DNA from: a virus
DNA: 35,870 nucleotides
Reading direction: 5' to 3' (one strand)
IMG/VR virus record: IMGVR_UViG_3300008267_010201
Location: 1 to 35,870 of that record
Shown: positions 25,779 to 30,736 of the stretch, one piece after another
How the letters are laid out: each line of letters opens with the position of its first letter
Position numbering within the stretch: the first letter of the stretch is position 1
The notes under the pieces: model-generated
The model's input: only the letters and a program-made list of their open reading frames with translations
Databases searched by the model: none
What the model was told of the DNA's origin: nothing
Program-made: the position numbers and the translations under genes

Positions 25779-26318
25779 ATGGCTTCTAATAAACAACGCA
25801 ACGCAGCAAAACTTAGCAGAGTTATTACATTGGGATACATTGATAGTGAATCAATTAATGAAGTTATAGAGCTTATATATGATATAAATGAAGAGGATAT
25901 TAAAAAAACGCAAGTAGAGCCAATTAAACTAATAATTAATTCACCTGGAGGAGAAGTATATAGTGGGTTAGCCTTAATTGATGTAATTGATAGCTCGCAG
26001 ACTCCAGTTTATACAATATGTCACGGTGCAGCAATGTCCATGGCTCTAATAGTATATGCTGCCGGTCACCATAGATTAGCAAGTAAATATGCTACATTTA
26101 TGTATCATGAAGCAAATTATGGGTTGGAAGGTAAAGTAACAATTCATAAGCAAGAAATAAAAGAAGCAGACCGTACTGAAAAAATATGTGATGATTATTT
26201 GTTATCTAAAACAAAATTCACTAAAAAACAGTTTGATAGTATTAAAAAAGCACAAGGAGAATGGTATTTTGATGTGAATGTAGCTAAGAAATACGGATTA
26301 GTAGATGAAATTTTATAA
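25779..26318 (+). CDS. clpP: ClpP-like serine protease
   Basis: A 179-residue ClpP-fold protein. LIINSPGGEVYSGLALIDVI is the conserved strand-loop. The catalytic Ser87 lies in HGAAMSMALIVYAAG (GxxxSM) and His110 in MYHEAN. The third triad position, Asp171 of E. coli ClpP, aligns to Glu in AQGEWYFDVNV. The ending AKKYGLVDEIL matches YGLID..L. No ClpX or ClpA ATPase is in the window, so it would use host ATPases or act alone. It lies 3.5 kb upstream of the phage tmRNA. A role in phage protein maturation is the main alternative. Confidence 0.85.
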   Translation: MASNKQRNAAKLSRVITLGYIDSESINEVIELIYDINEEDIKKTQVEPIKLIINSPGGEVYSGLALIDVIDSSQTPVYTICHGAAMSMALIVYAAGHHRLASKYATFMYHEANYGLEGKVTIHKQEIKEADRTEKICDDYLLSKTKFTKKQFDSIKKAQGEWYFDVNVAKKYGLVDEIL

Positions 26319-28751: not shown

Positions 28752-28909
28752 TGTCAGGTGGTGAAATGGCTCTAGAGCTTGGCAGACACCCCCACTCGTC
28801 TCGTGGGCGCAGAGTATGAAATAGGTAGATGAATATGGGTTGACCACAAAGCCGGCTATTTTGTTCATTACTGAATCACTGCGTGGAGGTTCGATTCCTT
28901 CCCTGACAG
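28752..28909 (+). tRNA. Giant tRNA-like RNA, no assignable anticodon
   Basis: The full cloverleaf can be drawn: acceptor TGTCAGG (28752-28758)/CCTGACA (28902-28908), perfect; D stem GTG/CAC; anticodon stem CCCAC (28791-28795)/GTGGG (28803-28807); T arm GGAGG-TTCGATT-CCTTC (28885-28901). Two parts are enlarged: the D loop contains the palindrome GCTCTAGAGC, and the variable arm is 76 nt, closed by CGCAG/CTGCG with an inner GTAgATGAA/TTCATTAC helix. The anticodon loop TCGTCTC has C at position 33 where tRNAs need U. It probably does not decode. It could be a tRNA mimic or a processing scaffold. Confidence 0.6.
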
Positions 28910-29028
28910 CATCAGCCCTGAGGCTAGGGGATCGAAAACTCAGGAACGCCTCTTAACAATGCGCACCCCTCCTCTGGATCGTTAGCCAGCGGTGTAAAGC
29001 AACTCCACTGGAGAATAGAGTTGCAAAT
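28910..29028 (+). ncRNA. Structured spacer RNA between tRNA-like RNA and tRNA-Gln
   Basis: No reading frame is convincing here. CCTGAG (28917-28922)/CTCAGG (28939-28944), GCAACTC (28999-29005)/GAGTTGC (29018-29024) and a possible GGCTA/TAGCC pairing show a folded RNA. GC content is higher than in flanking genes. It could be part of a precursor transcript or a separate small RNA. Confidence 0.4.
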
Positions 29029-29399: not shown

Positions 29400-29489
29400 C
29401 TGTTTGTGGTGAAATAGGTAGACACGCAGGACTTAAAATCCTGTTCGCCGAAAAAGCGAGTGCGGGTTCGATTCCCGCTGGGGGCACCA
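29400..29489 (+). tRNA. tRNA-Leu (anticodon TAA) with an unpaired acceptor stem
   Basis: D arm GTGAAATAGGTAGACAC, anticodon stem CAGGA/TCCTG with loop CTTAAAA (anticodon TAA), variable arm TCGC/GCGA and T arm GCGGG-TTCGATT-CCCGC are standard tRNA-Leu, and CCA is encoded (29487-29489). The 5' strand CTGTTTG (29400-29406) cannot pair with TGGGGGC (29479-29485): five G-U pairs and two mismatches, with no Watson-Crick pair. Function would require editing or tolerance, or the 5' strand derives from another RNA. Confidence 0.75.
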
Positions 29490-29501: not shown

Positions 29502-29822
29502 ATGGCATGTCATTATTTAAGTTTAAAAAGCGCTGATGAATTCTATCTCAGATTAAGAGATAGGGATCCAGATCTTATTTTAAAAATGGCTAAGTGTGTT
29601 TTGAGTGCATTTAAAAGAAGTAAAGATAGTATTGATATATTTGATATTACCTTTAAAAATTTAGATGGAATGACATTTACAGTTGAAAAAGTACAATATA
29701 AAGAATTACTTAGCAACTGTATGAAAGATTTAATTGAAATGGAGGAATATGAGTTGTGTGCTGAAATAAAGAAAATTTTGGAGGGTAAGAAAAGAGGTCG
29801 TAAATTAAAAGAAGTTCTTTAA
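29502..29822 (+). CDS. Small protein, paralogue of the 26648 product
   Basis: A 106-residue product started at ATG 29502, after tRNA-Leu; an in-frame start at 29460 would lie inside the tRNA. The middle FKRSKDSIDIFDIT and the C-terminal helix pair (YKELLSNCMKDLIEMEEYEL then CAEIKKIL) repeat the layout of the protein at 26648, including a UVR-like D/E-Y-x-x-C pattern. The tail GKKRGRKLKEVL is basic and could bind nucleic acid. It is the only substantial gene inside the RNA island. The function is unknown. Confidence 0.6.
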   Translation: MACHYLSLKSADEFYLRLRDRDPDLILKMAKCVLSAFKRSKDSIDIFDITFKNLDGMTFTVEKVQYKELLSNCMKDLIEMEEYELCAEIKKILEGKKRGRKLKEVL

Positions 29823-29827
29823 CATAT

Positions 29828-30210
29828 GGGGATAACCGGTATCGATCCGAATGATGAGATAATACCACATGCAGGCATTTGAGTATACTGCCTTAGAAGA
29901 TACTAAACAATAACTGACGAAATGTCAACTATGACCTTCGACGACCTTATGGCGTTCGTAGGCGCCGACTACGAATAAGGACAGTGGGATGGAAGCAATT
30001 CCTAGGGTTCTTGATTCCCCGACGATATAAAATCAAGTGGTGGAAACGACCATAAAGGTCAGCCCTTACGGTGCAAAGAGTTGTCTAGGCTTCATGCCTA
30101 TAGTAATGTATGCTGGGAAACCTATTATATATTCTTAGTACTAAGCATGTGAGACGTTGGTGTTATTGTCACTTTCGGAGACGTGGGTTCGAATCCCACT
30201 ATCTCCACCA
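29828..30210 (+). ncRNA. ssrA: Phage tmRNA with an atypical tag
   Basis: A 383-nt tmRNA. The tRNA-like ends pair: GGGGATA (29828-29834) with TATCTCC, including the G3-U70 pair that specifies alanine; GTGGG-TTCGAAT-CCCAC is the T arm and CCA is encoded at the end. CTAAGCATG upstream of the T arm is standard tmRNA. After AATAACT the tag frame starts at GAC 29916 and reads DEMSTMTFDDLMAFVGADYE, then TAA at 29976. TTCGTAG/CTACGAA and CCTTA/TAAGG form helix 5 around the stop codon. It rescues stalled ribosomes. Host tags of this phylum resemble GE..YALAA; this one is longer and acidic and does not end in LAA. Confidence 0.93.
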
Positions 30211-30360: not shown

Positions 30361-30736
30361 ACAAAGTACTTAGCACAGTTCTCAACGTTTACTGTCCCAG
30401 GCTAAGTCATTTAACAAACTGTGGCCGAACAAACTGTTAAGAGCGGTTAAGGCACTGGCGAAGTGGTTGAAAAACCAATTAGCTGGGTATTACAGGCGAG
30501 TGAGTTAAAACCACCATCGTTCTACGTTGGCCAACGTAATGGACGCTCTGGATACGCTTAAGATTATATCAACTGATCTTTGCAGGCGTTGCTGGTAGTC
30601 AATCCAGCCAGTTATTAACACTGAAACTGATCATTTTAGTGGACTGTGGGTGAAAAGGGGCTCGTCCGAGGATTGTGGGTAGTCAGGATTCCCATCGATG
30701 TTTTAGAGGTAACCGAAAGGTTACCTCTTTTTTTTT
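30361..30736 (+). ncRNA. Large structured RNA of unknown class with intrinsic terminator
   Basis: No coding frame fits, while many helices do: ACTTAGC (30368-30374)/GCTAAGT (30401-30407) around ACAGT/ACTGT; TTAACA (30411-30416)/TGTTAA (30435-30440); a multibranch helix AGAGCG (30440-30445)/CGCTCT (30544-30549) enclosing TGGTT-GAAA-AACCA and a 16-nt palindrome TACGTTGGCCAACGTA (30523-30538); then AAGAT/ATCTT and GCTGG/CCAGC. CCCAGgCTA can also pair with TAGCTGGG as an alternative. It ends in the terminator at 30705-30736. Candidates are ornate phage RNAs near tRNAs (GOLLD, ROOL), but I recognise none of them. Confidence 0.65.
30705..30736 (+). terminator. Intrinsic terminator of the structured RNA
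   Basis: AGAGGTAACC-GAAA-GGTTACCTCT is a perfect 10-bp stem with a GAAA tetraloop followed by nine T. It closes the RNA island and insulates the next gene, whose promoter box begins in the same T-run. Confidence 0.92.

Follow-up and report, generated by a model that had tools for sequence, protein, structure and literature searches.

A freshwater-type phage, represented by IMG/VR virus record IMGVR_UViG_3300008267_010201 (35,870 bases, 30.5% GC; this whole stretch is referred to as the window), encodes a bona fide one-piece transfer-messenger RNA (tmRNA) whose peptide tag ends in DYE and lacks a degradation signal (degron) of the LAA type. Judged by alignment to related phage tmRNAs, the odd ending is a derived internal deletion of 75-78 nucleotides (nt) found only in the window tmRNA, and is not a phage-wide strategy. 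The favoured explanation, which in our estimate has about an equal chance of holding or failing, is that the RNA would still rescue ribosomes with a degron-less tag. The following elements of the RNA were located:

29828-30210, + strand: phage tmRNA (ssrA) with encoded CCA (RF00023 match).
29828-29834, + strand: 5' strand of the acceptor stem, GGGGATA, with its partner TATCTCC at 30200-30206 (7/7 standard pairs, G3-U70 kept).
29846-29872, + strand: 5' strands of helix 2, with partners within 30145-30179 (21 pairs checked, all standard).
29874-29904, + strand: pseudoknot 1, GGCA/TGCC and AGTAT/ATACT (9/9 standard pairs).
29916-29978, + strand: tag frame, DEMSTMTFDDLMAFVGADYE followed by TAA, with resume codon GAC (from the Rfam alignment).
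29945-29980, + strand: new helix 5 created by the fusion, CCTTA..TTCGTAG(GCGCCGA)CTACGAA TAAGG (12/12 pairs).
29973-29974, + strand: deletion junction, CTACG joined to AATAAGGAC (75-78 nt of the relatives missing).
30183-30199, + strand: T arm, GTGGG-TTCGAAT-CCCAC (5/5 pairs; 115/115 in relatives).

The identification as a tmRNA, which an earlier note had made by inspection of the sequence, is borne out by a full-length match to the Rfam model RF00023 in cmscan (model positions 1-374 of 374, 63.8 bits, E 8.3e-23), above the gathering cut-off of 47 bits; ARAGORN made no tmRNA call at 29828-30210. The perfect seven-pair acceptor stem, G3-U70 pair and CCA described in that note are all present, together with the T-stem, and all 42 core pairs checked in the window tmRNA are standard. 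In 23 relatives, all 160 cells of the acceptor stem are paired, several with compensatory changes. Helix 2 also covaries among relatives, and both stems of pseudoknot 1, which sits upstream of the resume codon, vary with compensation across the family. A chance origin is excluded by the Rfam E-value, by these covarying helices and by a nonsynonymous divergence (dN) of the tag frame much lower than the synonymous divergence (dS) (dN 0.067, dS 0.52, over 35 distinct 23-residue tags), the latter also indicating that the tag of the relatives is under protein-level constraint. A two-piece, permuted tmRNA was considered and rejected, the gene order being that of a one-piece RNA and the match to RF04321 being partial and sub-threshold (14.2 bits).

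The tag comprises 20 amino acids, encoded by codons 29916-29975 and followed by the stop codon TAA at 29976-29978. Alignment to the Rfam model places the resume codon GAC in the same frame as had been proposed, and the composition read in that frame is likewise as proposed, with six acidic residues, no basic residues and a C-terminal DYE. The resume codon is preceded by TA-ACT, giving U at -5 and A at -4, a context that fits the Rfam alignment as well as genetic work in E. coli, in which changing the base at -4 abolishes tmRNA activity (PMC2481249). The hairpin TTCGTAG/CTACGAA, which the earlier note placed around the stop codon, is real; its strands (29955-29961 and 29969-29975) lie just 5' of the stop, and it is the outer helix CCTTA/TAAGG (29945-29949 and 29976-29980) that contains it. 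A local minimum free energy prediction also folds the new helix 5.

The DYE ending can be traced by comparison with the relatives. The window tag follows the family tag up to ...GADY, and the window matches the tmRNAs of relatives, L092 and L180 among them, at every base through GGCGCCGACTACG, after which they diverge, the tags of the relatives ending in ADYA[LV]AA. GACTACG and AATAAGGAC are separated by 75-78 nt in 37 relatives, by 87 nt in one and by 0 in the window. Within this interval the relatives carry the ALAA codons, the stop codon, the 3' strand of helix 5 and the whole of pseudoknot 2, so that the usual four-pseudoknot layout is not present in the window, pseudoknot 2 (expected between the tag and pseudoknot 3) falling within the gap. 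Fusion to the conserved downstream AATAAGGAC yields both the in-frame GAA-TAA and the hairpin TTCGTAG/CTACGAA. The lost structure is supported by pair counts in 13 relatives, in which helix 5 and the two pseudoknot 2 stems have 95.6% of cells paired, with double changes in four pairs, against 25-39% in slid controls. Outside the gap, the window tmRNA is 92.3% identical to that of contig L250, 92.2% to L257 and 91.5% to L245; since the tags of L257 and L245 end normally, the deletion is taken as derived. At its two ends lies an imperfect short direct repeat (CGACTACG versus CGACTCG), consistent with a slippage deletion. A search for the same junction elsewhere with the pattern GGNGCNGAYTAYGARTRAGG gave eight matches, none of them in a tmRNA.

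With only one record carrying the junction, an assembly or amplification artefact, in which the population tmRNA is intact and the contig merely lacks 75-78 nt, has to be weighed, particularly as records very near the window may lie outside the searched set. We consider it very unlikely. The flanks share only about 5-8 nt, probably too short for a typical k-mer assembler jump, and pseudoknots 3 and 4 of the contig also differ from those of the relatives, indicating that the contig is not just a truncated copy of a known sequence.

The related tmRNAs come from about 200 IMG/VR contigs. At least 119 stretches in IMG/VR matched the tag-start DNA pattern, and the tmRNA model scored above the cut-off in 19 of 30 contigs bearing a related GroEL. 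Complete tags were read from 205 family members, counted as loci and not as independent events, since some contigs may be near-duplicates: 94 end in AVAA, 57 in ALAA, 46 in AYAA, and one each in AIAA and AMAA, giving 199 of 205 (about 97%) with an A[VLYIM]AA end (145 of 147 in an earlier set), while the exceptions are three LAIA, two ATFA and the single ADYE of the window. Two further ATFA ends (L288 and L289) were read by hand outside the 205. The family tags are 21-26 amino acids long, the conserved tag added by the relatives of the window tmRNA having 23-25 residues, and in the alignments examined the resume codon mostly encodes Asp, otherwise Ala, Val or Asn. The conserved function of the family thus looks like ordinary tagging for degradation. 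The absence of an LAA-type end, noted earlier, therefore stands for the window; its interpretation as a phage strategy does not, as the same tag has a normal end in the nearest relatives and in about 97% of the family. The INPHARED collection contained no phage record matching the tmRNA beyond its 3' end, the close homologs found all being uncultured IMG/VR contigs, and a scan of Flavobacterium phage immuto with the tmRNA model gave no match. A host origin of the tag was considered and dropped, the tag DNA pattern having no exact match in the genome_contigs set. A second type of phage tmRNA tag, unrelated to that of the window, was seen in six contigs (L241, L247, L249, L255, L259 and L260; e.g. 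AKTRSQRVAEGEAILASIFQTEAVAA and GMTQSDRVAEGDAILASLFGEVAIAA).

In the proposed working of the window tmRNA, the internal deletion of 75-78 nt has joined the tag frame to AATAAGGAC, so that the tag ends in ...ADYE-stop and the degron is lost. The RNA would be charged with alanine, delivered by host SmpB and EF-Tu, and used to rescue stalled ribosomes, appending A-DEMSTMTFDDLMAFVGADYE to the nascent product. Without the C-terminal residues read by ClpX, this tag would be poorly recognized by ClpXP, and the product would be released, probably without the usual mark for destruction. Charging, delivery, rescue and tagging are still expected from the intact tRNA-like domain, helix 2, pseudoknot 1 and resume context. 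Use of host SmpB is presumed, since no SmpB was found in 19 phage records. We infer activity, alanine charging, rescue, host SmpB use and the stability of the tagged proteins in this way, and rescue that spares tagged proteins would be a reasonable consequence of the deletion. Two precedents bear on this proposal: E. coli tmRNA can do without its last three pseudoknots in vitro (PMC3985003), and growth of phage lambda imm-P22 in E. coli needs ribosome recycling and not proteolysis (PMC2862035).

Some points weigh against the predicted functional rescue. The deletion is carried by one record only, and the intact pairs may only reflect a recent event. The last point leads to a different explanation, in our judgement less likely than not but nearly as plausible as functional rescue, according to which the deletion inactivated a dispensable phage tmRNA whose remainder is so far undecayed, leaving an odd tag without a role. 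The loss of pseudoknot 2 and half of helix 5, parts that touch the ribosome (PMC8363625), would fit such an inactivation, as would the restriction to a single record and the imperfect repeat at the endpoints, which is what chance slippage is expected to leave. It is harder to reconcile with the 42/42 standard core pairs, retained despite only about 92% identity to the nearest relatives outside the gap, or with the presence of a stable new helix 5 and an in-frame stop.

Other altered tag ends show that the window is not alone in departing from the family degron. The ending ...ADEATFA is common to four phage contigs with diverged tmRNAs (L250, L288, L289 and L290), so that degron change is not unique to the window assembly. 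Since L250 and L290 differ strongly in the pseudoknot 1 and pseudoknot 2 regions, this ending was not copied from one contig. In L250, the upper part of helix 5 is replaced by AAGCAA/TTGCTT, with the stop codon and the helix base retained. A whole-length tree had suggested L250 as the sole sister of the window, a placement that was rejected because L250, L257 and L245 are equally near outside the gap; for the same reason, the DYE and EATFA endings are treated as independent. On these comparisons, the degron is changeable in this tmRNA family, though rarely.

These endings raise the question of a selected change, in which phages of this part of the family would alter the tag end so that products escape host proteolysis or go elsewhere, perhaps to the phage's own ClpP-like protease:

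25779-26318, + strand: ClpP-like protease gene (PF00574, 94 bits; PDB ClpP, E 1e-16).

By alignment, the catalytic Ser and His of this protein are matched and the Asp position is Glu (Ser-His-Glu). The gene is present in 12 of 19 records searched, and in records that have both it is some 4 kb away from the tmRNA. This proximity in many relatives, the appearance of ...ADEATFA on two clearly different tmRNA backgrounds, the rebuilt helix 5 of L250, the place of L250 among the tmRNAs closest to the window (92% outside the gap) and the three tags ending in LAIA would all be in keeping with selection. However, the window ending was seen a single time, the other odd endings retain a terminal Ala, and the pairing of ClpP with odd tags had to be discarded, as ClpP also occurs in phages with ordinary tags and a search of the L250 record did not find it. 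Selection on the tag end has only a slim chance of being the main cause. A broader version, a natural tmRNA that deliberately spares tagged proteins from host ClpXP, or competes with the host tmRNA, in a clade that remodels its tag end (DYE, EATFA, LAIA), is also improbable, if a little less so.

Phage tmRNAs are already known (PMC4131195, PMC9004378, PMC7162821). The window RNA resembles the bacterial one-piece tmRNA (RF00023) in its tRNA-like domain with G3-U70, CCA, helix 2, pseudoknot 1, TA-NNN resume context and tag frame with stop, and differs in its Asp (GAC) resume codon, long acidic tag, terminal Glu, absence of an LAA-type end and lack of pseudoknot 2. Mycobacteriophage Bxz1 and its relatives, and Bacillus phage G, also encode tmRNAs (PMC4131195), but belong to phage lineages other than that of the window. 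The ssrA of Methylophilales phage Melnitz is another aquatic phage tmRNA (PMC9004378), but is two-piece, permuted and riboswitch-controlled, while that of the window is one-piece and lies beside a gene for a 106-amino-acid protein. Mycobacterium phage DS6A carries a tmRNA reduced by loss of tag parts, and such tmRNAs consisting only of the tRNA-like domain inhibit the host tmRNA in E. coli (PMC11915505, PMC4131195); in DS6A the whole tag frame is gone, whereas the window has lost only the degron, the old stop and pseudoknot 2, besides the 3' strand of helix 5. A charged C-terminal tag residue (Lys) occurs in Carsonella, by a 2014 account the sole such species (PMC4131195), which is a degenerate endosymbiont, in contrast to a phage with Glu. 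If it works as proposed, the window RNA would be a natural parallel to the laboratory variant tmRNA-DD, a rescue tag without ClpXP signal (PMC2635970, PMC2862035), which is an engineered substitution retaining pseudoknot 2, whereas the window carries a natural deletion that removed it. The literature searched, which is only part of the whole, described no natural phage tmRNA carrying this deletion.

The phage also encodes GroEL, Hsp20, a T4-type clamp loader, a sugar-modification cluster and tRNAs. Its GroEL shares 57% identity with the GroEL of Flavobacterium phage immuto, in which a PD-(D/E)XK nuclease and glycosyltransferases follow GroEL in similar order, and from these likenesses we would guess that the host belongs to the Bacteroidota. 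The gene preceding the tmRNA is conserved:

29502-29822, + strand: conserved 106-amino-acid protein, MACHYLSLK... (stop 5 nt before the tmRNA).

Among 18 aligned relatives, this protein shows 39-86% identity, and in most loci with the gap measured its gene stops 5-7 nt short of the tmRNA. It has no Pfam or PHROG match; a likeness to a UVR motif in its C-terminal part, EEYELCAEIKKILE, was seen by eye only.

Three further RNAs were observed nearby. At 28752-28912 lies a tRNA-like RNA of about 160 nt with an acceptor, an anticodon-type arm (CCCAC-TCGTCTC-GTGGG), a T arm, an additional structured arm of some 75 nt and a variable D-loop; it was aligned with 10 further phage loci (mean column identity 80%, compensatory changes in 14 of 43 predicted pairs) and received no Rfam or ARAGORN call. 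Directly 3' of the tmRNA, at 30401-30710, is a conserved GC-rich noncoding RNA ending in a terminator hairpin and aligned in 12 other phage loci, which from its sub-threshold match to manA RNA (RF01745, 33.4 bits, cut-off 55.2, E 2.3e-6) is probably a diverged manA RNA. A tRNA-Leu-like gene at 29407-29478 has the anticodon loop CTTAAAA (Rfam 37.9 bits, no ARAGORN call).

The deletion in the window tmRNA would separate, in nature, the two jobs of tmRNA, namely release of the ribosome and marking of its product for degradation. Should the RNA prove active, it would reveal which of these jobs a phage needs. More broadly, the roughly 200 related phage tmRNAs, with their conserved long tag, rare alternative ends, lack of SmpB and often a nearby ClpP-like gene, provide a comparative set for the study of tag function.
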